Shown piece after piece: positions 39,662 through 52,404 of a DNA stretch of 64,000 nt (positions are counted from its first letter, which is position 1; the number at the start of each line of letters is the position of its first letter). The position numbers and the translations under genes were made by a program. The DNA is from an uncultured Cohaesibacter sp. (lineage in GTDB: Bacteria > Pseudomonadota > Alphaproteobacteria > Rhizobiales > Cohaesibacteraceae): assembly GCF_963676275.1 (NCBI RefSeq), contig NZ_OY781091.1:186001-250000 (forward strand). The letters run 5' to 3'. The notes beneath the pieces are model-generated. The model worked only from the letters and a program-made list of their open reading frames with translations. It searched no databases and was not told the origin of the DNA.

Positions 39662-41947
39662 ATGGCAAACGCACTCAAGAAGCTTGGCAGTCTGATGCTC
39701 GCCGCGTTCCTCTTTGGGGCGATGCAGGCGAAAGCGCAACAGAGCGACAGGGCTACAATTGTTATTCTCGATGCATCTGGGTCCATGTGGGGCCAATTGT
39801 CCGACGGACGCACGAAAATCGAGGTGGCCCGCGATGTGCTTGGCGGCTTCCTTGGCTCGCGAGACCTGTCTGTTCCCCTTGGTGTCGTGGTCTATGGTCA
39901 CCATCGCAAGGGGGATTGCTCCGACATCGAAGTGGTGGCTCCGGTCGGAGGGCAAAGCGCCGCCGAATTGTCCGCCCGCCTCAACCGCATCAGCCCGAAA
40001 GGCAAGACGCCGCTTGGCCAGTCCTTGCAGATTGCCGCCGCAGAAATTCCCCGCACCGCCGAAGAGGCAGACATCGTGATGGTCACGGATGGTTTAGAGA
40101 CTTGCGGTGTTGACCCCTGCGCGGTTGCGGATGCGCTTGCGGCGGATGGAGTGAAGATCCGGGCCCATGTGGTCGGCTTCGGTCTCAGCGAGGTGGAAGC
40201 GGATGCCCTTGCCTGCATTCCCGAAAAGACCGACGGGCTGTTGATGCGGCCCCAGACGGGGGCAGAGCTGGCCGAGGCGCTAGCGCGGACAACGGCGGAT
40301 GCACCAGCCGTAAGAGCCACTGGCGTTCGCCTCATCTTCTCCTATCCCGGCGCCATGCCCGATGTCTATGAATGGGCGCTGCGCAATGACGAGACGGGCG
40401 AAGAACTTGTGCTTGGCAAGGTCTCCGGCGATGAACGCTACAGGCCCTTTGCGGTGGAGATGGCACCGGGGTCATACACGGCAATCGTCACAGCCACTGG
40501 CGGTCGTGGGGAGACGAAATTTGCCGCCGGTGGGGAAGCTCAGGATGTTGTTGTCACCATGCAGGGCATCCTGCCTGTCACCGTGATGCAGGACCGGGGG
40601 CCTTATGCGGCGCGCGGGGAAACCGTGGCGATTGATCTCAACATCACGCAGGCCGGTCAGGAGCAGGGCGGGGCAGCTCTGGCGTTGCGGCTCTATTCTG
40701 AGGCCGGAGGCGATGCGATTACCTATTCCACCATCGAAGGCCAAGCCGGCGTCAAACAGGCCGGGATCAATCTTCCCGCCACGCCGGGACGCTATCTCTT
40801 AAGGCTCGAAAGCTGGGGTGGTGAGTTGGTCGAGGAGATGATGATCTTGTCGCAAGCCAACCCGGAGGTGACGCTCATTGCACCGCCACAAGTTGCGCCG
40901 GGCGAGGTGATCGTCGTTGAGAGCATCGGCAGCCAGCTATGGAATGACGGCATCGAGATCTGGCAGGGCGACCGTCAGATCGACTGGGGGGCAACGCTCG
41001 GCGATCTTGCCTATGGCAATCAGCTCCACGCCCCCGCCGAGCCGGGCACCTATGATCTGGTCTATAAAAGCCATGACGCTTCTGGTGAGCGCGTCGAGAA
41101 GACCCGTATGTCGATCGAAGTCGGTGAGGTCGTCGATGATGCTGCCGGGGCCGGGCGAACGCAAAGCGGCACTTCGGCGGACAGCGGTGATGGGCACGGG
41201 CCGGATGGCGGGGTATCACCGGTCTCGGGGCAGGAGGCTGGCAAGGCGTGGGAGGACTATCCCCACCGCTGCCTGCCCGGCGACAGGACCGTCGAGAATT
41301 GCGACATGCGCGATGAGACAACCGGTCTCTTCTTTCACCTGCCAGAAAATTGGGTCGCAGACGTGATGCCGTCAAGCCCCCATCCGCGCGCCGAATTTGC
41401 ACAGGAGGCAGGGGCAGCTCATTCGATATGGCTGAACCCGATTGATTGGCCAATGGGAGAGCGTGGATGCCGCCTCACGCGGGTCGGGCAGCTTTGTGCT
41501 GATCCTGACCGGTCGGACAAGGAGCTTGAACGGGCAATGCAGACCCTGCAATTCACTCTGACAACCGGCAAGGTCCTCCGGCGATGTGGTGATGAGGATT
41601 GCGAATTCGGATTCAAGGGATCGCCGGTCAATGGCCTCCTCCCGGCGCGCTGGTCTACCGAGTTCGGAGACGTCGGTTCGGACGGTCTGGTGCGCAGCTG
41701 GTTCTGGGATCGCGATCCGGCGGGCAATTTCAAACTCGTCGGGCTCAATCAGGAGGGCGGCGAGGATTGTCTCGAAGTCGCGCCCGGATCGCTGCTCTGC
41801 GCTTTCACCCCCTATATCTCCTCACAGGAATTCGACCTCATCCTAAACAATCTAAAAATCGGGGCGCAGCCGCAAAAGGCAGACAATGGCGCAGCCGCCA
41901 AACAGCTTCTTGATCTGCTCGCCCCTGCGCGACGCCCGGCACCGTGA
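39662..41947 (+). CDS. Secreted von Willebrand factor A domain protein
   Basis: A 761-aa protein with a signal peptide (LGSLMLAAFLFGAMQAKAQ). The VWA domain (about 28-215) has the metal-ion site D37-x-S39-x-S41 (VILDASGSMWG), a threonine in GKTPLGQSL and MVTDGLETCG. Beta-rich domains follow (about 220-480), a Gly/Ser/Asp-rich linker (about 495-525), and a C-terminal domain with several cysteines (EDYPHRCLPGDRTVENCDMR; CRLTRVGQLCADPDRSDKEL; RRCGDEDCEF). It probably acts in the periplasm or outside the cell and binds a metal-dependent ligand. It is followed 22 nt later by another exported protein. Confidence 0.85.
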   Translation: MANALKKLGSLMLAAFLFGAMQAKAQQSDRATIVILDASGSMWGQLSDGRTKIEVARDVLGGFLGSRDLSVPLGVVVYGHHRKGDCSDIEVVAPVGGQSAAELSARLNRISPKGKTPLGQSLQIAAAEIPRTAEEADIVMVTDGLETCGVDPCAVADALAADGVKIRAHVVGFGLSEVEADALACIPEKTDGLLMRPQTGAELAEALARTTADAPAVRATGVRLIFSYPGAMPDVYEWALRNDETGEELVLGKVSGDERYRPFAVEMAPGSYTAIVTATGGRGETKFAAGGEAQDVVVTMQGILPVTVMQDRGPYAARGETVAIDLNITQAGQEQGGAALALRLYSEAGGDAITYSTIEGQAGVKQAGINLPATPGRYLLRLESWGGELVEEMMILSQANPEVTLIAPPQVAPGEVIVVESIGSQLWNDGIEIWQGDRQIDWGATLGDLAYGNQLHAPAEPGTYDLVYKSHDASGERVEKTRMSIEVGEVVDDAAGAGRTQSGTSADSGDGHGPDGGVSPVSGQEAGKAWEDYPHRCLPGDRTVENCDMRDETTGLFFHLPENWVADVMPSSPHPRAEFAQEAGAAHSIWLNPIDWPMGERGCRLTRVGQLCADPDRSDKELERAMQTLQFTLTTGKVLRRCGDEDCEFGFKGSPVNGLLPARWSTEFGDVGSDGLVRSWFWDRDPAGNFKLVGLNQEGGEDCLEVAPGSLLCAFTPYISSQEFDLILNNLKIGAQPQKADNGAAAKQLLDLLAPARRPAP

Positions 41948-41969
41948 TGGACAGGAAAGGACGCACCCC

Positions 41970-42728
41970 ATGAAACACACTCTGACCTTCGCCGCTCTTT
42001 TGCTTTTGGGCACGAGCCTCGCGGCCCCGGCACTTGCCGAAAATGTCATCATTGCTGAATGTCATGGCAATGGGGCGGATTTCTATCTCTCTGACTTTGA
42101 TCGCGAGAATATTGCAGAGGCCGGTAAAAGCGTCGGTCTTCCACCGCCGACATCCGCAGATGCAATCCTTGTTGTTGACCGCAAGACCGGGGCCTATCAC
42201 TGGGATCGCCGATCCCGGGCAGCCATCGCCAGGGAATGCGGTGGAGAAGAGGATGAACTGGCGCTGTTTGAAGGCATTCAGCCCAAGCCCGGCCTGTGGC
42301 AGGCCCGACTTGGTGCAACGCGGCTTGATGGCTGTCCGCCGATCATGGAGCAGTTTTTCCCCAAATCACCCGGCGCTCTGCCGCCGGAGTGGCAACAACC
42401 CCGCCCCTTGACCTATCAGGCTCCGTTCCATCCGGACAAACTGGAAATGACGAAAAGGCTAGAGGCGCAGGGCAAGAGCAAGGTCACATGGCGCACCGTG
42501 GGCAATGATGCCTGGGAAGCAGAGATCTTTTCGGAATTGTTTGGCCAGATACCGGCAGGAGAAGGGCTCGGCAGCAAGATGACGTGGAACCTTACGGTCA
42601 AGAGCCCTACCGAGATCGAGCATATCTCGACCGTTCACATAGTCTTGCCCGCCGAAGCTGCGGCGGTGATGGGCGGCAAGGATTGCAAGATGGTGAGCGC
42701 CAATGCGTGGGTGCGGGTGGGAGACTAA
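41970..42728 (+). CDS. Exported protein of unknown function next to VWA gene
   Basis: A 252-aa protein with a signal peptide (LTFAALLLLGTSLAAPALAE). The mature part contains ADAILVVDRKTGAYHWDRRS, PGLWQARLGATRLDGCPPIM and EIEHISTVHIVLPAEAAAVM and keeps few cysteines. The family is not recognised. The start at 41970 follows AAAGGA at about 8 nt; the frame extends upstream into the VWA gene, but that part is out of context. The 22-nt gap after the VWA gene suggests an operon, so the two products may work together in the envelope. Confidence 0.75.
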   Translation: MKHTLTFAALLLLGTSLAAPALAENVIIAECHGNGADFYLSDFDRENIAEAGKSVGLPPPTSADAILVVDRKTGAYHWDRRSRAAIARECGGEEDELALFEGIQPKPGLWQARLGATRLDGCPPIMEQFFPKSPGALPPEWQQPRPLTYQAPFHPDKLEMTKRLEAQGKSKVTWRTVGNDAWEAEIFSELFGQIPAGEGLGSKMTWNLTVKSPTEIEHISTVHIVLPAEAAAVMGGKDCKMVSANAWVRVGD

Positions 42729-42805: not shown

Positions 42806-43744
42806 CTAGAATTCGGGGAACTGCAGCAATCTTCCGCTAAGCTCGCCTGTCGACACCGCTTCATGCACCAGTTCGACGATCAGGCTCTTGACGGCCAGAG
42901 CGGCATTGGAAAGCTCTATGTCATTGCGGAACACGATGCTCATGATGCGTTCCGGGGTTGGATCGATGATCTTGTGAGCGCTTAAGACACCGGCCTCGAT
43001 ATCATGTGCGAAGATGGAATAGGGAACCACGGTGTAGATCTCTCCGCATCGGACAATCTCGTGATAGATGGCGGCGGCATCCTGTTCATACTGAATATTG
43101 ATGGCAAAGCCATGCTTGATTGCAGTGGTTTGGAGTTCGATTCTCAACTGGTCATTCTTGCCGCCCATGACGAGCGGATAGCGATGCAAATCCTTGAACA
43201 TCACGAAATTCGGATGGTTTCTGTCCGCTTGCCGGGGGCCAATCAGATAAAGATCCTGAGCGATCAGGGGGAAGATATTGACATCTTCCAATGTAGGCGC
43301 ATTCGGCAAAAGGCCGAAATCCACCTCACGTGTTTCAATCAGTTGCCGAGAATCCCGGACCGAAAGGTCAAGCAGCCGCAGATTGATCTTGGGGAAACGG
43401 TCATGGCAGCGCCAGAAGAGTTTGCCCGCCAGCGGTGGCACCATGGATTTTGACAAGGCAACGACGACCTGACCGGCCGGTTCCGATCCGATCTGGATCA
43501 CCTCTTCACGCGCCTGTTCCACATGGCGCAGAATGGCATCGGCATGTCTTCGCAGCTTGATGCCCGCATCGGTCAGCTTCACGCCACGCACCGAGCGTTC
43601 AAACAGAATGGTATCCACACTTTCTTCCAATTGGCGCATGTGAATGCTCAGTGCGGGCTGGGCAATGGAGGCCGCTCGCGCAGCCGCAGAGATCGAGCCA
43701 TGTTGGGCGATCAGCAGAAAGAGTCGTAATTGTTCAAGGCGCAT
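42806..43744 (-). CDS. LysR family regulator of the Tct/PLP locus
   Basis: A 312-aa regulator with N-terminal helix-turn-helix RLEQLRLFLLIAQHGSISAA and QPALSIHMRQLEESVDTILF, and a LysR substrate-binding domain that resembles NAC/CbbR-type proteins (VVALSKSMVPPLAGKLFWRC; VDFGLLPNAP). The start at 43744 fits the family length; the frame continues upstream to a TTG at 43792. It is divergent from tctC with 129 nt between. ATATG/CATAT inverted repeats at 43760-43785 are a possible binding site. It should control uptake and breakdown of the TctC ligand. Confidence 0.92.
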   Translation of the reverse strand: MRLEQLRLFLLIAQHGSISAAARAASIAQPALSIHMRQLEESVDTILFERSVRGVKLTDAGIKLRRHADAILRHVEQAREEVIQIGSEPAGQVVVALSKSMVPPLAGKLFWRCHDRFPKINLRLLDLSVRDSRQLIETREVDFGLLPNAPTLEDVNIFPLIAQDLYLIGPRQADRNHPNFVMFKDLHRYPLVMGGKNDQLRIELQTTAIKHGFAINIQYEQDAAAIYHEIVRCGEIYTVVPYSIFAHDIEAGVLSAHKIIDPTPERIMSIVFRNDIELSNAALAVKSLIVELVHEAVSTGELSGRLLQFPEF

Positions 43745-43873
43745 GGTTCTGAAGGGGGTATATGAAATTATTATAGAAAGCATATTGAACAAATATTTTT
43801 CTTAGAGCAAGCCTGTGGCTATGCTGGCGTAAAAAAAGAACTCGACAAAGGCAATTCCCAACAGGAGAACAAT

Positions 43874-44848
43874 ATGTTCAATATCAAAAGAGCCGTTGCA
43901 GCTTCAGCCGCACTGCTGGTTGCTGGTGCCATTTCTACCACATCAGCATTTTCGGCAGATTACCCCGAGAAGCAGATTGACGTGATCGTCGCCTTCGGTC
44001 CCGGTGGCGGAACCGACGTTGCAGCCCGCACGATCGAGCCATTCATCGAGAAATATCTCGGCGCGGATCTTGTCATCATCAACAAGCCCGGTGCTGGCGG
44101 CGAAATCGGCTTTTCCCTGCTCGCTTCTTCCAAGACTGATGGCTATACCCTCGGCTTCATCAACCTGCCAGCCATGTTCGGCTATTCTTATGAGCGCGAG
44201 ACCGATTATTCGCCGAAAAGCTTCAAGGGCGTGGCAAACCTCGTTTACGATCCGGGCATCATTGCTGTTCCCGCAGACAGCGACATCAAGGATCTCAAGC
44301 AGTTGATCCAGTTCGGCATCGACAATCCCGGCGCGCTTCCGATCGGCACCTCCGGCTCTGTTGGTTCCAGTGAACATATTGCCATTCTGCAAATGCAGGC
44401 CAAAACCGGTGCGACCTTCAATCACGTGCCATTTGGCAGCACCGCACCGCTGCGCACCGCTCTGCTTGGCGGTCACATTCCCGCCGCCGCTTTCAACCTC
44501 TCCGAAGGTGTTGAATATATGAAGGAAGGAACGCTGCGCATTCTTGGTGTAATGGCTCCGGAACGCTCCGACTTCGCGCCGGATGTACCGACCTTCAAGG
44601 AACAGGGCGTTGATGTCGTCATGGGCTCTTCCCGTGGTCTGGCTGTTCCTGCCGGTACCCCCGAAGAAATCGTTGAGAAGCTGAGCGCTGCCGTTGAGAA
44701 GGCAATGGCCGATCCTGAATATGCCGAAAAGGCAAAGGCTGCCGGTGTTCCCGTTCATTATCTGAACGACAAGGACTATGACAAGTTCCTCGCAGAAACC
44801 AGTGAAAATCTGGACATGACCTGGGAAAAGACTCCTTGGACCAAATAA
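43874..44848 (+). CDS. tctC: Tripartite tricarboxylate transporter substrate-binding protein (TctC/Bug)
   Basis: A 324-aa periplasmic binding protein with a signal peptide (AVAASAALLVAGAISTTSAF). Bug-family hallmarks are YPEKQIDVIVAFGPGGGTD, INKPGAGGEIGFSLLASSK, GTSGSVGSSEHI, the HVPFGSTAPLRTALLGGHI segment and VPAGTPEEIVEKLSAAVEKA. It captures a small carboxylated compound, not identifiable from sequence, and delivers it to TctAB. AGGAG upstream supports the ATG at 43874. A strong intercistronic hairpin follows, probably raising its expression over the permease genes. Confidence 0.94.
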   Translation: MFNIKRAVAASAALLVAGAISTTSAFSADYPEKQIDVIVAFGPGGGTDVAARTIEPFIEKYLGADLVIINKPGAGGEIGFSLLASSKTDGYTLGFINLPAMFGYSYERETDYSPKSFKGVANLVYDPGIIAVPADSDIKDLKQLIQFGIDNPGALPIGTSGSVGSSEHIAILQMQAKTGATFNHVPFGSTAPLRTALLGGHIPAAAFNLSEGVEYMKEGTLRILGVMAPERSDFAPDVPTFKEQGVDVVMGSSRGLAVPAGTPEEIVEKLSAAVEKAMADPEYAEKAKAAGVPVHYLNDKDYDKFLAETSENLDMTWEKTPWTK

Positions 44849-44861
44849 GGAAAATAAAGGC

Positions 44862-44887
44862 GATGGCGGCTTGTAAAAGCCGCCATC
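44862..44887 (+). repeat. Strong intercistronic hairpin between tctC and tctB
   Basis: A perfect 11-bp GC-rich stem (44862-44872 with 44877-44887, GATGGCGGCTT and complement) with loop GTAA. It is followed by CAGTCTTTTAGG, so it could act as a partial terminator or protect the tctC mRNA 3' end. Confidence 0.75.
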
Positions 44888-44908
44888 CAGTCTTTTAGGA
44901 TCGGGATC

Positions 44909-45382
44909 ATGAATTATAAAACTGCTGAAATCGGCCTGTCCATCGTCTTGCTGGTCGTCTCCTTTGTCTCCTGGCTGTCAATCAAGGATATTCCTGCCGA
45001 TGCGCAGATGTTCCCCAATTTCATCCTCGGCGGGATCGCGCTCTGCTCGGTCGTGATGATCGTGCGCAGCCTGACCGGTGCCTCCCAGAGCGCATTGGGA
45101 GATGATCTGAAGGGATGGACATTTTCCATCAGCCTCAAGCGCATGTTTGGTGGCCTTCTGATTTTTGTCGCCTATCTGCTTGTCGTTGACCATATCGGTT
45201 ATTTCACCGCCTCGGCCCTGCTGATCGTCGCTCTTGCCGCGTTCGCCGGATACAGAAACTGGATCGCGCTCATCAGCTCGGCAATCGGCTTCTGCCTGTT
45301 TGTTTATCTGGTCTTCGTGCTGCTCTTCAATCGGCCGCTGCCTCACGAATTCTTCGTCACCCTGTTCTCGGCCTCAAACTAG
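44909..45382 (+). CDS. tctB: Tripartite tricarboxylate transporter small membrane subunit TctB
   Basis: A 157-aa protein with four membrane helices (TAEIGLSIVLLVVSFVSWLS; MFPNFILGGIALCSVVMIVR; LLIFVAYLLVVDHIGYFTAS; AIGFCLFVYLVFVLLFNRPL). The MFPxFxLGGI motif in helix 2 is typical of TctB. It sits between tctC and tctA, with a 10-nt gap to tctA. Confidence 0.92.
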   Translation: MNYKTAEIGLSIVLLVVSFVSWLSIKDIPADAQMFPNFILGGIALCSVVMIVRSLTGASQSALGDDLKGWTFSISLKRMFGGLLIFVAYLLVVDHIGYFTASALLIVALAAFAGYRNWIALISSAIGFCLFVYLVFVLLFNRPLPHEFFVTLFSASN

Positions 45383-45392
45383 GGATACCGCC

Positions 45393-46910
45393 ATGACTGA
45401 TATTATTGCAGCCATCTTTCATGCTCTTCCTTATGTTTTGGAATGGCAGAATCTTCTGGGAATGCTGATTGGCGTTTTTGCCGGCATGGTTGTCGGGTCT
45501 CTTCCCGGCCTGACCGCGACCATGGCAATCGCCGTGCTTATCCCGCTCACCTTCTCCATGCAGCCGCTGGTGGCCCTGGGCATGATGGCCGGTATCTATA
45601 ACGGCGCCATGTATGGCGGTGCCATTCCGGCAATTCTGCTCAATATTCCCGGCACGCCTCCCTCCATCGTGACGACCTTCGATGGCAACCCTCTCGCCCA
45701 TCAGGGCCGGGCAGCCTACGCGATGAAAGTGGCTTGCTGGTCCTCGGCAATCGGTGGAGCATTCAGCGCCATCTCCCTGATGCTCTTCGCGCCGCCGCTG
45801 GTCAAGGTGACCTTGCTGTTCGGTCCGGCAGAATATTTCTGGGTTGGTGTCTTCGGCCTTTCCGCCATTGCCGTTCTGCTTGGTAAGGATCCGATCAAGG
45901 GCATCACCGCCGGTCTTCTTGGCCTGATGTTCGGTGCAATCGGCTCTGATGTGGTAACCGGTGCAGACCGCTTCGTGTTCGATCAGCGCGAATTGCTGGA
46001 TGGTATCAACATTCTGATCATTCTCACCGGTCTTTACGCCATTCCTCCAGCCATCCGCATGGTCGAGAAGAAGATCGTCGACACGGCCCAGAAGATCAAG
46101 ATCGAGTCCGGCCCGGAAGACAGCTTCTGGAAGAATTTCCGCCAGTTCATTCCGACATGGATCCGCAGTTCGCTGATCGGCATCTGGGTCGGTATCCTGC
46201 CTGCAACGGGCGGCTCCATGGCGGCTTTCATCGCCTATAACGAAACCAAGCGTGTTTCGGATGATCCCGACAGCTTCGGCAAGGGCAATCCCAAAGGCAT
46301 CGCGGCGGCTGAATGCGGCAACAATGCCGACAATGCTGCTGCCATGATTCCGGCTCTGGTGCTCGGTGTGCCGGGCAGTGGTGTTGCTGCGGTCATTCTG
46401 GCAGGCCTTCTGGTGCATGGTCTCCAGCCCGGCCCGCAATTGTTCCGCAACACGCCGGACATCGTCTATGGCTTCATGTGGCAGATGCTGCTGACCTCTC
46501 TGGTGCTGTTCGCCTTTGGCGGAACCGTTGCGATCAAGCTGTTTGCCTATGTCATGCGTCTGCCGCAGACGGTTCTGGCGCCGATGATTCTGGCTCTCAC
46601 ATTCGTGGGTATCTATGCCCTGTCGAACAATATGTTCAACTGCTGGCTGATGCTCGGCTTCGGCGTGGTCGGCTATGTGCTCAGCCGTTTGCATTTCCCG
46701 CTTGCGCCGATTGTGCTGGGGCTGGTGCTGGGCGATATGGTCGAGAAGAATCTGCGTCTCACCCTGCTCATCAATCAGGGCGATGTGACGTCTCTGGTTG
46801 CCTCCCCGCTGTCATGGCTGCTGGTTGGTCTCAGTCTTCTGGTTCTGGGCTATCCGCTCTATGGCTATTTCCGGGATCGTCGGGCAAGCAAGAAACTGGC
46901 TGGAGCTTGA
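45393..46910 (+). CDS. tctA: Tripartite tricarboxylate transporter large permease TctA
   Basis: A 505-aa permease of about 12 helices with TctA signatures: GMLIGVFAGMVVGSLPGLTA near the start, YGGAIPAILLNIPGTPPSIV, TAGLLGLMFGAIGSD, then GILPATGGSMAAFIAYNETK and ECGNNADNAAAMIPALVLGV. It uses the ion gradient to import the TctC ligand. The frame is open to 45234, but AGGG 8 nt before the ATG at 45393 fixes the start. Confidence 0.94.
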   Translation: MTDIIAAIFHALPYVLEWQNLLGMLIGVFAGMVVGSLPGLTATMAIAVLIPLTFSMQPLVALGMMAGIYNGAMYGGAIPAILLNIPGTPPSIVTTFDGNPLAHQGRAAYAMKVACWSSAIGGAFSAISLMLFAPPLVKVTLLFGPAEYFWVGVFGLSAIAVLLGKDPIKGITAGLLGLMFGAIGSDVVTGADRFVFDQRELLDGINILIILTGLYAIPPAIRMVEKKIVDTAQKIKIESGPEDSFWKNFRQFIPTWIRSSLIGIWVGILPATGGSMAAFIAYNETKRVSDDPDSFGKGNPKGIAAAECGNNADNAAAMIPALVLGVPGSGVAAVILAGLLVHGLQPGPQLFRNTPDIVYGFMWQMLLTSLVLFAFGGTVAIKLFAYVMRLPQTVLAPMILALTFVGIYALSNNMFNCWLMLGFGVVGYVLSRLHFPLAPIVLGLVLGDMVEKNLRLTLLINQGDVTSLVASPLSWLLVGLSLLVLGYPLYGYFRDRRASKKLAGA

Positions 46911-46913
46911 GAC

Positions 46914-47345
46914 ATGACAGATGGAACCTTCACCCTGCATGAACGCCTGATCAAGGCAACCCGCCCTCTGATCAGCACAGCGCTAAGCGATATTCTGATG
47001 ATGGAAGAACGCAGAATACCATGGCTTCTTCTTGTGCCAAGAAGAGAAGGGGTTGAGGAGTTCCATCATCTTTCCGCAGCTGATCGCCAGATTTTCATCG
47101 AGGAAATCGCCGCAATCACAGCCGGGCTGGAAAAGGAATTCAGCCCGGTGCGGATCAATGTCGGCGATCTGGGCAATATCGTCGGCCAGATGCATGTGCA
47201 TCTGGTTGCACGCCAGACCGACGACCCCTTCTGGCCCCAAGTGGTTTGGAGCCGTGATCGAGAGCCTTTCAGAAATGATGAGGAAGCGGACATGATGCGT
47301 CAACGACTGATGCGAGCCTGTTCATCTCTTCTGCCGCCGGGCTGA
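46914..47345 (+). CDS. HIT-like domain protein
   Basis: A 143-aa protein of the histidine-triad superfamily. The N-terminal strand and helix region is ILMMEERRIPWLLLVPRREG, and the triad region is GNIVGQMHVHLVARQTDD. It has H-x-H but no third triad histidine at the usual place, so nucleotide hydrolase activity is uncertain. The ATG follows the tctA stop by only 3 nt, so it is translated with the transporter. HIT proteins of this short form occur in many alphaproteobacteria; its role in the locus is unknown. Confidence 0.85.
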   Translation: MTDGTFTLHERLIKATRPLISTALSDILMMEERRIPWLLLVPRREGVEEFHHLSAADRQIFIEEIAAITAGLEKEFSPVRINVGDLGNIVGQMHVHLVARQTDDPFWPQVVWSRDREPFRNDEEADMMRQRLMRACSSLLPPG

Positions 47346-47423
47346 CGAGACTCTCGACTTTCTCCCCTAACTTTTAGCAATGAATGACTGCCCTTAGGCG
47401 GCAGAACAGGAAGGTATTGTCTG

Positions 47424-48419
47424 ATGACATACTCCCCCCTCATCAAACAGGTATTTGGAACACGCGCAGAAAAGGGACCGCTCTTTTCCTTTTGGACGCA
47501 TTTCCCGCAATGTGACATGGACCCGGAAGCGCTTGCAGAAAGTTCCGTGGAAAATCAGAAGAAGTTCAATCTCGATTTCGTCAAGGCCGCGCCAAATGGC
47601 ATGTATACCATTGAGGATTATGGCGTTGATGTTGATTTTTCCGAAGTCCCGACCGGCGGCGTTGCCAAGCTGGTGGATACGCCCTTCAAGACCGTTTCCG
47701 ACTGGCGCAAGCTCGAAGCGATCGAGCCGGATGCCGGAGCATTGGCCCGCGAAATCCTCTCGATCCGACTGATGCGTCAGGCCCTGCCAGATGTGCCGAT
47801 CTTCTTTTCCTCATTCAGCCCGATGACGACTGCAGCCAAACTGAGCGGCAATCGCATTCGCGAACAGCTCAAGGATCGCGACAATGCACCGCTGATCCAT
47901 CAGGCGCTTGCGCGCATTGCTGCCACGACGCAAAAAACCATCGCTGCGGCCATGGAAGCCGGAGCCACCGGGGTTTTCTTTGCTCATCAGGACACCTCTC
48001 GCGATCTGTTCAGCTATGATGATTTCAGCGAATTTGTCGAGCCTTACGATCATGAAGCCCTGCTTGGTGCGGCGCGCGCTCCGTTCAATATCCTGCATAT
48101 TCACGGCGCGTCGATACGGTTCAAGGAATTGCTCGACTATCCGGTGCAGGCCTTCAACTGGCATGCATGGGAAACCACCCCCAGTTCCAGCGCTGGCATG
48201 CTGTCGTCAAAGCGCTGCGTTTTGAGCGGGATCGACCGCCGCTCCATCACCGAAAATGACATAGACGCGTTGAAAAGCCAGGTGGATGCCTCTCTTGCCG
48301 CCGCAGACGGGCTGGGAGATTTCATTCTGACCCCGAGCTGCATCGTGCGCGCCGGCTTCAACGAGGAAACCGTACGCCAGCTGAGCGACTATGTTCACTC
48401 ATTCTCTTTTGACAACTAG
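47424..48419 (+). CDS. Uroporphyrinogen decarboxylase-superfamily protein (methyltransferase-like)
   Basis: A 331-aa TIM-barrel protein of the URO-D superfamily, which includes corrinoid methyltransferases (MtaA, CmuA) besides heme enzymes. Visible segments are FSFWTHFPQCDMDPEALAES, IFFSSFSPMTTAAKLSG, AAMEAGATGVFFAHQDTSRD, PFNILHIHGASIRFKEL and ILTPSCIVRAGFNEETV. The HIH...C pattern lies where methyltransferase members carry zinc ligands HxC...C, so a metal site is possible. The residues needed for uroporphyrinogen decarboxylation were not evident. Placement in a transport/PLP operon argues for a catabolic lyase or methyl transfer role. Inference only. Confidence 0.82.
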   Translation: MTYSPLIKQVFGTRAEKGPLFSFWTHFPQCDMDPEALAESSVENQKKFNLDFVKAAPNGMYTIEDYGVDVDFSEVPTGGVAKLVDTPFKTVSDWRKLEAIEPDAGALAREILSIRLMRQALPDVPIFFSSFSPMTTAAKLSGNRIREQLKDRDNAPLIHQALARIAATTQKTIAAAMEAGATGVFFAHQDTSRDLFSYDDFSEFVEPYDHEALLGAARAPFNILHIHGASIRFKELLDYPVQAFNWHAWETTPSSSAGMLSSKRCVLSGIDRRSITENDIDALKSQVDASLAAADGLGDFILTPSCIVRAGFNEETVRQLSDYVHSFSFDN

Positions 48420-48449
48420 ATCCATTCTATCAATCAACAAGGAAGCACC

Positions 48450-48836
48450 ATGAAAGCAATCACCAGCAAAAAGGCTCCCGGTGCGATTGGGCCATATTCT
48501 CAAGCCGTAGCGACCAATGGCTTGCTGTTCGTTTCAGGGCAATTGCCGATCAATCCCGAGAGTGGCGAAATCGAAGCCGGCGATGTGGTCGGTCAGCTGC
48601 ATCAGAGCATGCAGAATATTGCCGCCATCGCCGAGGAGGCTGGCACCTCGCTGGCCAATACCGTCAAGACGACCATTCTCATGCAGGATCTGTCCGGCTT
48701 TGCCGCAGTAAATGAGGCATATGGCTCCTATCTTGCCGAGCCGTTTCCGGCCCGCGCCTGTTATCAGGTGGCCGCCCTTCCCAAAGGCGCGCTGATCGAA
48801 ATCGAAGCGGTCATTGCGCTGAAAGGAGACGCATGA
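48450..48836 (+). CDS. ridA: RidA family enamine/imine deaminase
   Basis: A 128-aa RidA protein (KAPGAIGPYSQAVATNGLLF; SGQLPINPESGEI; FPARACYQVAALPKGALIEI), with the active-site arginine at R102. RidA hydrolyses reactive enamines and imines such as 2-aminoacrylate made by PLP enzymes to keto acids and ammonia. Its stop overlaps the start of the PLP-enzyme gene (ATGA), strong evidence that it processes that enzyme's product. The ATG has AGGA 7 nt upstream. Confidence 0.95.
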   Translation: MKAITSKKAPGAIGPYSQAVATNGLLFVSGQLPINPESGEIEAGDVVGQLHQSMQNIAAIAEEAGTSLANTVKTTILMQDLSGFAAVNEAYGSYLAEPFPARACYQVAALPKGALIEIEAVIALKGDA

Positions 48837-49945
48837 TGCGACAGGTTATGCAAGTCATGGAGACCGGTATGGATCATCCGCTTTGTCAGCAAGACACACA
48901 TCAGAGCTGGGCCTGCATGGCGCTGGAAAAGCTGGAGCGGGAAAAGCAGCGCGCCGTTGACACCCATCTGATCCTGCTTGAACTGCCCGGTTTTGAAGAT
49001 ACGCCGATCTATTTCAAGGACGAAAGCACCCATCCGACCGGGAGCTTGAAGCACCGGTTGGCGCAATCCCTGTTTGCCAATGCCATCTGCCATGGCTATA
49101 TCGGTCCGGAAACCACCGTGATCGAGGCATCGTCCGGCTCGACTGCGGTCAGTGAAGCCTATTTTGCCCAACTGCTCGGGCTGCCTTTCATTGCCGTGAT
49201 GCAGAAAGATACCTCGCAGACCAAAATCGACGCCATCAAGCATTATGGCGGGCAGATTCATCTGGTCGAACGCAGTGATCAGGTTTATGCCGCATCCGAA
49301 CGTCTGGCTGAAGAGACCAACGGTCACTATATGGACCAGTTCACCAATGCGGCGCTGGCAACGGACTGGCGCAGCGACAAATGCATCGCCGGAAGCATCT
49401 TGCGCCAGATGGAGCGCGAACCCGATCCCGTCCCAGCATGGATCGTCATGGCCGCCGGTACAGGGGGCAATTCGGCGACAATCGGACGTCATCTGCGCTA
49501 TCACAAGCTGGCAACGAAACTGTGTGTGCCGGATGTTGAGAATTCGGTTTTCATGGATGCCTGGTCGACGCGCGATGCCAGCCTGACGAGTGATGTCGGC
49601 TCACGCATTGAAGGCATTGGCCGCCCTCGGGTCGAGCCTGCCTTCAAGCCCGATGTGGTGGATGCCATGCTCAAGGTGCCTGATGCTGCATCGGTCGCTG
49701 CCATGCTCAAGCTGTCCCAATTGCTTGGGCGCCCGGTTGGCCCTTCCAGTGGCACCAATTTCTATGCAGCCTTGATCATTGCCCGGAAAATGCAGGAAGA
49801 AGGGGAAAAGGGAGCCATTGTTTCTGTGATCTGCGATGGTGGTTATCGCTATCTTGATACCTATCACAATCTCGATTGGCGCTTGCAGAAAGATCTTGAA
49901 AGCACCCAGTTTGCCGCCGAAATAGAAGATCTTCTTTCAAGATAA
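48833..49945 (+). CDS. PLP-dependent lyase/synthase of the cysteine synthase (fold type II) family
   Basis: A 370-aa fold-type-II PLP enzyme. The Schiff-base lysine is K73 in PTGSLKHRLA, the substrate loop IEASSGSTAVSEAYFAQLLG, the phosphate-binding glycine loop AAGTGGNSATIGRHLRY, and the C-terminal SVICDGGYRYLDTYHN. It resembles PLP-dependent cysteine synthase-like proteins and cysteate or beta-eliminating lyases. Its coupling with ridA suggests elimination giving an enamine, not synthesis. Ligand uptake by TctABC suggests a small carboxylated substrate such as a sulfonated or substituted amino acid. Exact reaction unknown. Confidence 0.88.
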   Translation: MMRQVMQVMETGMDHPLCQQDTHQSWACMALEKLEREKQRAVDTHLILLELPGFEDTPIYFKDESTHPTGSLKHRLAQSLFANAICHGYIGPETTVIEASSGSTAVSEAYFAQLLGLPFIAVMQKDTSQTKIDAIKHYGGQIHLVERSDQVYAASERLAEETNGHYMDQFTNAALATDWRSDKCIAGSILRQMEREPDPVPAWIVMAAGTGGNSATIGRHLRYHKLATKLCVPDVENSVFMDAWSTRDASLTSDVGSRIEGIGRPRVEPAFKPDVVDAMLKVPDAASVAAMLKLSQLLGRPVGPSSGTNFYAALIIARKMQEEGEKGAIVSVICDGGYRYLDTYHNLDWRLQKDLESTQFAAEIEDLLSR

Positions 49946-50452: not shown

Positions 50453-51721
50453 TCAGTCTGATTGTTTCTCTGGAATGGCTATGGTTATGGTCAGACCGCC
50501 CGTATCCGGCAGGGAGGCCCAAACTTTGCCGCCATTTCTTTCGATTGCCTGCTTGGTGATCGCCAATCCCAGCCCATAGCCGCTTCCCTTTGCTTCACCG
50601 CGGGAAAAGGGCTGAAAAATCTTTTCAAGCTCCGCGCGATCAACCCCGCCCCCCTGATCGGCGATCGCGATATGGAGCCAGCCCTCCTTGACAACGGCCT
50701 TGATGCCAACAGCAGAGTGATCGGGAGAATATTTGATGGCATTGCGAATGACATTTTCCAGCGCACGATAAATCAGCTCGCCGTTGACTTTGGTCACGAA
50801 GGAACTGGTTCCGTTGATTTCGATGGAAATATCGCGCGCCTGAGCTTCGAATGAGGCGTCTGCAACAATGTCATTCAAAAGATCGACGATATCGAGGGTC
50901 TGAAGCTCGAATTCCTCTTTTGAGCGGCTTGTCAGTCTGGCGAGCGTTAGAATTTCCCCGATCAGACCATCCATTCTTTCCACCTCGGCTTCCATGCGCA
51001 GAAGCATTGCATTCAGCTTGGAAGGATTCTGCTGCAACACCCCGATGGCAGCCTGAAGTCGCGACAGGGGGGAGCGTAGTTCATGGGAGACATCGTGGAA
51101 TAGTCTTTCGCGGGATTTCTGGAATTTGTCCAGATGTTCGGCGCTGACATCAAAATCATGGGCAAGGGCAACCAGCTCATCATTGCGCCGACCACCCAGC
51201 GTGTGGGCAATGCGGGTATCAAAATGCCCCCCGGCCAGCCTTTTCAGGCCCATCCGGATCTTGAAAATCGGCGTGATGAGATAGCGCGCCAGCCAATAGG
51301 CGGCAAGGGCCGCCGCCATCAGAACGAATGTGACTGGTGCAAAGCGTATCCAGGCTACCGAGAACGGATCCTCTATCTCCGGCTCAACCGTGATCTGATA
51401 GCATTGCCCCTTTGACATCGTGGTTGCGCTAAAGTTGACCATATCTGTTGGACAATGCGTCTCCCCCTCCAGAGGCATGATTTGCATCACAATAGAGGTG
51501 GGGATCCGGTCTGCCGCATTGATAAAGGTTTGGGCCGCTTCCAGCCCATTTTCATGCAACAGGGCCGTGACCGTATTCAGCGCAAACAATTCCTTTTGAT
51601 GCGCTATCTCTCGGGGGAGCGGGGCCAGTTGCAATGTCTTGGTCACAACGAACAGCAGCAGCACGGACGCCGTCAGGGTCAGCCAGATCACCAGAAAGAA
51701 CTTCCAGAAAAGCTTGTTCAT
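50453..51721 (-). CDS. CpxA/EnvZ-type sensor histidine kinase
   Basis: A 422-aa sensor. Membrane segments are at about 7-28 and 125-148, flanking a periplasmic domain of about 95 aa. A HAMP linker (LITPIFKIRMGLKRLAGGHF) follows, then the H-box FHDVSHELRSPLSRLQAAIG with H213. The ATPase domain contains ENVIRNAIKYSPDH, DQGGGVDRAELEKIF and GSGYGLGLAITKQA. Its ATG overlaps the regulator stop (ATGA). Together with the CpxR-like gene and the divergent RND pump it probably responds to envelope or toxic stress. Called CpxA-like from the H-box and gene order. Confidence 0.92.
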   Translation of the reverse strand: MNKLFWKFFLVIWLTLTASVLLLFVVTKTLQLAPLPREIAHQKELFALNTVTALLHENGLEAAQTFINAADRIPTSIVMQIMPLEGETHCPTDMVNFSATTMSKGQCYQITVEPEIEDPFSVAWIRFAPVTFVLMAAALAAYWLARYLITPIFKIRMGLKRLAGGHFDTRIAHTLGGRRNDELVALAHDFDVSAEHLDKFQKSRERLFHDVSHELRSPLSRLQAAIGVLQQNPSKLNAMLLRMEAEVERMDGLIGEILTLARLTSRSKEEFELQTLDIVDLLNDIVADASFEAQARDISIEINGTSSFVTKVNGELIYRALENVIRNAIKYSPDHSAVGIKAVVKEGWLHIAIADQGGGVDRAELEKIFQPFSRGEAKGSGYGLGLAITKQAIERNGGKVWASLPDTGGLTITIAIPEKQSD

Positions 51722-52404
51722 TCTTCCTCTCTGATCAATTGATAGCCCTGCCCGCGAACGGACTGGATCCAGGATTGCCCATCGGAGCGCTTGCCAAGCT
51801 TCTGCCGAACGCTGCTGATATGGACATCGATCCGGCGATCATAGGGGGTGAGTGGCCTGCCGAAGGCCTGCTTCGAAATGTCCTGCTTGGATATGAGTTG
51901 TCCTGCGCTGCGGGCCAGCACTTCAAGAAGGTTGAATTCCGTGCCGGTCAATTCCAGTGGTTTGCCGTTCCATTCCGCTGAACGCTTGCCCGAATGCAAG
52001 ATAAGATTGCCTGCCTGCAGGCTTTCCATCGGGGGAAGGATGCGCTCGACGCGGCGCATGATGGCGCGCAGCCGTGCAAGCAACTCTCCGGGAGAGCAGG
52101 GCTTGGTGACATAATCATCGGCGCCCAGATTAAGCCCGGCGATGCGATCCGCGTCATCGCCCTTTGCTGTCAGCATCAGAACCGGAACCGTGCTGGTCTT
52201 GCGGATGCGTTGCAAGAGTTCAATGCCGTTCATTTGCGGCATCATGATATCGAGCACGATAATGTCGACCGAATGCTGCGACAGGAATTTGAGCGCAGTC
52301 CGGCCATCTTCAGCGGTGTAGACCCTGAAATCCTCTTCGACCAGATATTCCTTCAAAAGCGTAGTGAGCTCGCTGTCGTCATCGACCAGAAGGACGCTTG
52401 TCAT
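51718..52404 (-). CDS. CpxR/OmpR-family response regulator
   Basis: A 228-aa regulator: a receiver with D8-D10 and phosphoacceptor D52 (IIVLDIMMPQMNG), T (VLMLTAKG) and KP lysine (DDYVTKPCSPGE). The C-terminal winged helix has LELTGTEFNLLEVLARSAGQ and DRRIDVHISSVRQKLGKRSD. It is transcribed first, then the kinase, with overlapping stop and start. It is divergent from the RND efflux operon (149 nt between starts), where a CpxR-box-like pair is found, so it probably activates the pump genes. Confidence 0.94.
   Translation of the reverse strand: MTSVLLVDDDSELTTLLKEYLVEEDFRVYTAEDGRTALKFLSQHSVDIIVLDIMMPQMNGIELLQRIRKTSTVPVLMLTAKGDDADRIAGLNLGADDYVTKPCSPGELLARLRAIMRRVERILPPMESLQAGNLILHSGKRSAEWNGKPLELTGTEFNLLEVLARSAGQLISKQDISKQAFGRPLTPYDRRIDVHISSVRQKLGKRSDGQSWIQSVRGQGYQLIREEE

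Follow-up and report, generated by a model that had tools for sequence, protein, structure and literature searches.

The eight genes at positions 42,806 to 49,945 of the stretch of Cohaesibacter DNA analysed here (64,000 nucleotides, G000:C1:186001-250000 in a genome of 5.03 Mb; called the window below) appear to constitute an operon with a divergent regulator through which a carboxylated cysteine derivative is taken up and broken down. This is the explanation that we favour overall, and we see the chances for and against it as balanced. We regard it as highly probable that one half of the operon degrades cysteine, and as probable that the whole operon serves to supply this degradation with cysteine. 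For the proposal that the enzyme of the uroporphyrinogen decarboxylase (URO-D) superfamily carries out the cysteine-releasing step, which is drawn from sequence comparisons, the scales are even. The genes are the following:

42806..43744, minus strand: LysR-family regulator (Pfam HTH_1 and LysR_substrate), divergent from the operon
43874..44848, plus strand: TctC/Bug periplasmic solute-binding protein (Pfam TctC, 2.3e-49)
44909..45382, plus strand: TctB small membrane subunit (Pfam TctB, 4.4e-17)
45393..46910, plus strand: TctA large membrane subunit (Pfam TctA, 1.2e-149; start corrected to ATG 45393)
46914..47345, plus strand: HIT-domain protein (Pfam HIT, 3.3e-11)
47424..48419, plus strand: URO-D-superfamily enzyme (Pfam URO-D, 1.7e-24; metal-site positions His225, His227, Cys306)
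48450..48836, plus strand: RidA, 2-aminoacrylate/imine deaminase (TIGR00004, above cut-off)
48833..49945, plus strand: pyridoxal phosphate (PLP) enzyme, predicted L-cysteine desulfhydrase of the Cds1/CdsH family (NF052478, E 6.3e-141, 469.8 bits)

An earlier note on this DNA had described this set and order of genes, and apart from two corrected start codons the description holds. The LysR, TctC, TctB, TctA, HIT, URO-D and RidA proteins exceed the respective Pfam cut-offs, among them the HIT protein and the three Tct subunits that the note had named, so that a complete tripartite tricarboxylate transporter is encoded. The overlap of 4 nt between ridA and the PLP gene is found at 48833-48836.

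The PLP enzyme and RidA

The best NCBIfam model for the PLP enzyme is the L-cysteine desulfhydrase Cds1 with 469.8 bits, as opposed to 146.5 bits for the best cysteine synthase model and 89.6 bits for cysteate synthase. The protein is 58% identical to CdsH from Salmonella and has in common with it the motifs around the PLP-binding lysine (STHPTGSLKHR) and of the substrate loop (EASSGSTA). This is strong family evidence that the enzyme is an L-cysteine desulfhydrase of the Cds1/CdsH family and no cysteine synthase; the plain cysteine synthase which the earlier note had named as part of an outcome that would refute its proposal is thus not what the scores indicate. The presence of RidA (162.6 bits with TIGR00004, cut-off 106.25 bits) is understandable, since a Cds1-type enzyme generates 2-aminoacrylate, which RidA removes. 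The suspected pairing of RidA with an eliminating fold-type-II PLP enzyme is therefore borne out, the enamine being most likely 2-aminoacrylate derived from cysteine and the substrate of the operon most likely a cysteine derivative.

The note had left open whether the substrate is a small substituted amino acid or a sulfonate, and our results agree with the former part only. Tct systems are known for sulfonates and the fold of the PLP enzyme fits a beta-elimination, and a sulfonate such as cysteate could thus be considered. No finding, however, indicates cysteate or sulfolactate: the score with the cysteate synthase model is far below that with Cds1, and no sulfonate gene was recognised among the window genes scanned. 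We consider this substrate class highly improbable.

URO-D homologues and cysteine degradation

Homologues of the URO-D-like protein were taken from plasmid records, one genome scan and genome samples, and 24 loci were inspected with the same probes for all. In this search the Polaromonas locus was present a second time, and the plasmid match H54 was left out as it is nearly identical to H53. A cysteine-degrading gene is located within a few kb at 10 of the 24 loci, the window included; as the window was the starting point, the unbiased count is 9 of 23, G006 and G013 being orthologues of the window. Eight loci have Cds1-type genes (the window, G006 twice, G013, G012, Gemmobacter, Microvirga with a truncated gene and Polaromonas with a short open reading frame (ORF)). 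The other two, from the Bacillota genomes G1307 and G1098 (L068:7251-10000 and L069:1149-9502), have genes for CyuA-type desulfidases, whose proteins have 33% and 38% identity with CyuA of E. coli; the G1307 protein matches solved L-cysteine desulfidases at 2.7e-36. Since Cds1 and CyuA are unrelated yet share one substrate, the association points to cysteine.

The link between URO-D and cysteine genes is not a single inheritance, as both trees suggest. In a tree of 14 chosen PLP sequences (the truncated Microvirga protein and the G011 protein left out) those linked to URO-D stand in three separate places, namely in a genus clade (100/100), with CdsH and Shewanella in the case of Polaromonas (100/98), and among alphaproteobacterial PLP enzymes in the case of Gemmobacter (97/96). 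On the URO-D tree of 21 sequences, the label for a cysteine gene requires five changes, four of which are forced by well-supported branches; these might be gains, losses or exchanges. The clustering of the label is only moderate, with 34 of 500 label shuffles equalling the real one.

The genus of the window also has a second URO-D paralogue, about 24% identical, which is accompanied by an M19 dipeptidase and a TRAP transporter. In G006 and G012 this second cluster comprises an MlrC-type peptidase too and then the same RidA-PLP pair. Thus, both paralogues, one with Tct and one with TRAP, are linked to this pair. Among 18 genomes of the genus, the PLP enzyme (searched at E 1e-80) is present in all four with URO-D and in one of the 14 without, that one being more distant (Fisher p 0.0016, with no correction for kinship). 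Among viral contigs there was no match for the PLP enzyme. Close homologues of the URO-D-like protein are rare: one in 398 genomes of the phylum of G000, which is G000 itself (E 1e-50), two in 295 of the Tropicimonas family including that of Tropicimonas (E 1e-20), and, for Lawsonibacter, one in 250 of its family, namely its own (E 1e-60), and six in 398 of its phylum with its own included (E 1e-40).

The operon in other genomes

A check of the conserved neighbourhood, as proposed in the earlier note, found the same eight genes in identical order in the two sister species G006 and G013, with proteins 70-94% identical, and the core of the set in Gemmobacter. The flanks of the operon in the sister species differ from those in the window, with weak matches in one (29% for the histidine kinase, 36% for the response regulator) and none in the other. 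In Gemmobacter the core without the HIT gene is rearranged to LysR, URO-D, TctCBA, RidA, PLP enzyme and an octopine/nopaline-type dehydrogenase. Since the sister operons lie beside other flanks and the Gemmobacter core has another order, the shared gene set is more than chance. The HIT proteins of the two sister operons are 82-90% identical; a HIT gene was neither annotated nor seen at the other URO-D loci read.

The regulator of the window is 45-46% identical to the LysR proteins adjacent to URO-D in Tropicimonas, Microvirga and Gemmobacter, and its TctC is 69% identical to that of Tropicimonas and 49-50% to those of Microvirga and Gemmobacter, compared with 26-30% for two unrelated TctC proteins. 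As a marker of the pathway TctC was nevertheless rejected: among 951 plasmid records the two URO-D plasmids come out on top, yet no URO-D is annotated with the relatives that follow.

The Microvirga plasmid encodes LysR, URO-D, TctCBA and remnants of RidA and the PLP enzyme, followed by Lrp, a protein of the cysteine dioxygenase family (Pfam CDO_I) and an annotated sulfate exporter. The latter two genes downstream speak for the explanation favoured here, and the remnants are a decaying copy of the cysteine-degrading end. Upstream, past a transposase, there are an octopine-type dehydrogenase and hydantoinase/oxoprolinase genes. In Tropicimonas, TctCBA and an octopine-type dehydrogenase are close to LysR and URO-D, and G1285 from the Bacillota sample has this dehydrogenase, URO-D and directly thereafter a C45-type acyltransferase/hydrolase (L065:2605-3723). 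The Polaromonas locus also contains genes matching molybdopterin oxidoreductase, the Aerococcus locus a methionine-type ABC system, and the loci of L. kefiri and Nicoliella contain ABC systems for amino acids. The companion genes have sulfur amino acids and carboxylates as their theme; no one substrate suits all. The octopine/nopaline dehydrogenase was rejected as a required partner and is an accessory, because it occurs at only four of the 24 loci (Gemmobacter, Microvirga, Tropicimonas and G1285) and a search at 1e-10 found none in the genus genomes G000, G006, G012 and G013.

The URO-D-like protein

With family models the URO-D-like protein has three matches at E 0.01, all of them to methylcobalamin:coenzyme M (CoM) methyltransferases and far below the cut-off. 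The hemE model TIGR01464 is not among them, and an assignment as HemE was rejected. A profile of 19 homologues could be aligned to MtaA (4ay7, E 4.5e-16), and in this alignment His225-x-227 corresponds to the H-x-C of MtaA and Cys306 to its Cys, whereas the solved HemE 1j93 has neither the H-x-C nor the Cys of the metal site at the aligned positions. All 21 homologues have His225 and Cys306, and at position 227 there is a His in 17 of them and a Cys in four. The protein thus retains, by alignment, the metal-site positions of thiol methyltransferases, in agreement with the metal-type site that had been suspected. The zinc ligands of the S-methyltransferases of this superfamily are His-Cys-Cys (PMC10418091). 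The window protein has His225-His227-Cys306 and so departs from this triad of MtaA and the Mlp proteins; the genus paralogue has His-Cys-Cys, and the Lactobacillaceae homologues also have Cys at 227.

The methyl transfer that the earlier note had considered for this enzyme is consistent with the metal-site positions, but less so with the His-His-Cys set and with an operon without a corrinoid protein. A classical corrinoid methyltransferase would demethylate S-methylcysteine or a similar thioether, with a corrinoid protein or MetH encoded elsewhere as the methyl acceptor. The best family scores, the zinc site of the superfamily and the Cys at 227 in the paralogue and in the Lactobacillaceae would suit such an enzyme, and B12-binding proteins are found in all five genomes searched, with a match to the corrinoid activase family in G000 and G451. 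On the contrary, no corrinoid protein or activase gene was found in the operon by Pfam and NCBIfam scans or seen at the other URO-D loci read, the activase was not found in G006, G012 and G013, that is in three of the four genus genomes with URO-D, the match in G000 has an internal stop, and the window protein has His at 227. We therefore consider the corrinoid route the less likely one, with a small chance of being correct. In G000 the distance between the activase match with the internal stop and a small B12-binding protein is about 4 kb (G000:C1:1117928-1122297).

Proposed pathway and alternatives

The activities of the encoded families might give the following pathway. LysR would sense the substrate or an intermediate, TctC would capture the substrate, as is known for its family, and TctAB would import it. 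The carboxylated cysteine derivative, a conjugate, would then be degraded in the cell: the URO-D-like enzyme would bind the sulfur of cysteine at a metal with His225, His227 and Cys306 as ligands, and with the cysteine thiolate as leaving group the substituent would be removed and L-cysteine freed without a corrinoid partner of its own. The Cds1-type enzyme would eliminate sulfide from cysteine to give 2-aminoacrylate, and RidA would hydrolyse the enamine/imine to pyruvate and ammonia, as is known for this family. A wider proposal, which we put forward only tentatively and hold to be doubtful, is that the URO-D-like family as a whole consists of corrinoid-independent metal-thiolate enzymes that cleave C-S bonds and free L-cysteine from environmental conjugates, with the transporter (Tct, TRAP or ABC) and the degrading enzyme (Cds1 or CyuA) freely swapped between lineages.

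Several observations weigh against this pathway. The score of the PLP enzyme is below the curated cut-off of NF052478 (469.8 of 600 bits). Neither Cds1 nor CyuA is found at 14 of the 24 URO-D loci, namely those of Tropicimonas, Lawsonibacter, Aerococcus, the second G000 cluster, G498, Thermomicrobium, L. kefiri, Nicoliella, L. mucosae, Emticicia, G1285, G1019 (two) and G1304, two of which are on contigs under 5 kb (G1285 and one of G1019). In the Tropicimonas genome there is no Cds1 relative at 1e-30, and the second URO-D of G000 (G000:C1:3885655-3886689, L023), near an M19 dipeptidase and a DctM-type TRAP subunit, lacks the RidA-PLP pair. Where the pair is present it is not always intact: in Microvirga RidA is broken across two frames and the PLP gene truncated, behind TctA (L009:14050-15350), and in Polaromonas the ORFs are short (82 and 302 aa). 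The next-nearest TctC relatives (44-48%) adjoin hydroxy-acid genes and no annotated URO-D. None of the seven other Cds1 contexts read, among the matches listed (40 of 334 found), has an annotated URO-D, which means that Cds1 serves further routes too. Finally, the structure predicted for the URO-D-like protein from three sequences (mean predicted local distance difference test (pLDDT) 69.1, predicted template modelling score 0.75) is weak exactly around Cys306 (pLDDT <50 at 296-321), and Foldseek puts MtaA (1.5e-10) and a HemE (2.7e-10) nearly level. The structure search of this model confirms the URO-D superfamily and nothing finer, and the metal site is therefore read from the alignment.

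RidA is adjacent to Cds1 in three of the seven contexts, and Cds1-RidA looks like a cysteine-disposal module which ends various routes. It could be reasoned that in the window Cds1 and RidA only remove surplus cysteine or are part of a regulon of their own, and that Tct and URO-D form an unrelated carboxylate pathway. The many operons with Cds1-RidA pairs, the TctC relatives beside hydroxy-acid genes and the 14 loci without a cysteine-degrading gene agree with such a separation. The overlapping genes of the window, the same content in another order in Gemmobacter and the repeated, non-homologous pairing of cysteine-degrading genes with URO-D do not, and this separation appears improbable to us.

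It might also be the PLP enzyme itself that splits an S-substituted cysteine into a thiol and aminoacrylate, the URO-D-like enzyme then handling the thiol. Relatives in the PLP family accept various beta-substituents, and any small thiol would fit the URO-D site. The motifs of the PLP enzyme are, however, those of CdsH, and at two loci its place is taken by CyuA, a cysteine-specific desulfidase according to annotation and solved structures; we consider this order of events unlikely.

A cysteine-derived ring, that is a thiazolidine or thiazoline carboxylate opened or decarboxylated by the URO-D-like enzyme, is suggested by genes annotated as 2-amino-thiazoline-4-carboxylic acid hydrolase, which are near Cds1 in two of the seven other contexts, and by a gene annotated as the L-2-amino-thiazoline-4-carboxylic acid hydrolase in the URO-D operon of L. 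kefiri. These are annotation names only: the proteins from L. kefiri and Azospirillum show no match to one another at 1e-6 and none to any NCBIfam model, and the window has no such hydrolase gene. A ring substrate is thus very unlikely. A carboxylated conjugate from which the URO-D-like enzyme frees cysteine is the substrate we prefer.

Comparison with known systems

In the literature searched, which was mostly non-subscription, no paper combines the URO-D family with cysteine desulfhydrase and RidA, or pairs URO-D with thiazoline hydrolase, cysteine desulfidase or nopaline dehydrogenase. A selenium study of a methanogen reportedly mentions both URO-D and a Tct transporter. The novelty claimed in the earlier note stands in so far as no described pathway with this gene set was found; the PLP enzyme itself is of an ordinary family, and what is new would be the supply of cysteine.

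The PLP enzyme and its RidA partner resemble the known Cds1/CdsH system in family and motifs, but the cdsH gene of Salmonella adjoins decR whereas the PLP gene of the window is part of an operon with transport and URO-D genes. With the CoM methyltransferases MtaA and MtbA and the type 1 mlp clusters of anaerobes the URO-D-like protein shares the superfamily, the metal-ligand positions and the link to sulfur; these clusters, as described in PMC10418091, encode more than one Mlp together with a corrinoid protein and an activase, whereas the window has one URO-D with His for one Cys and no corrinoid genes. In the breakdown of S-(2-succino)cysteine by the yxe operon or 2SL, too, a cysteine conjugate is taken up and broken so that cysteine results. 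According to PMC9706529, N-acetylation and deacetylation accompany the cleavage, which is carried out by the monooxygenase YxeK or a class I lyase, and the eight window genes are of other families. A precedent for zinc-thiolate chemistry without corrinoid is the cobalamin-independent methionine synthase MetE, whose barrel is thought to be related to URO-D (PMC539065). MetE is a double barrel with folate, and the window protein has no detectable sequence family match to it.

Bacterial proteins of the uroporphyrinogen decarboxylase family are annotated far beyond heme synthesis, most of them without an assigned role. The repeated pairing with two unrelated cysteine-degrading enzymes gives this family a testable job, as the product should be cysteine. 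If true, organic matter would yield its cysteine sulfur by a new route, the superfamily would gain a new reaction, and orphan Tct binding proteins would be connected to organosulfur compounds.

Regulatory features and flanking genes

Two short features lie between the genes:

43782..43796: candidate LysR operator, interrupted palindrome ATATT-N5-AATAT, in the LysR/tctC divergent gap
44862..44887, plus strand: hairpin between tctC and tctB (11 pairs, 7 G-C)

The ORF of LysR opens with TTG 43792, but the family matches start at residue 17, which is Met 43744, and with this start the divergent gap is 129 bp. The palindrome has one difference across three species within a nearly identical block of the gap and may, from its sequence, be the LysR operator.

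The gaps among the seven plus-strand genes from tctC to the PLP gene are 60, 10, 3, 78, 30 and -4 nt, a spacing which fits one transcript. The strong hairpin is a caveat to co-transcription as a single simple transcript; it possibly favours expression of the binding protein.

Directly 3' of the operon, on the opposite strand, a histidine kinase and a response regulator are encoded (50453-52404), nearest to the CpxA and CpxR models. On the other side, at 39662-42728, the window contains a VWA-domain protein of 761 aa and then an overlapping ORF of 280 aa without a Pfam match.

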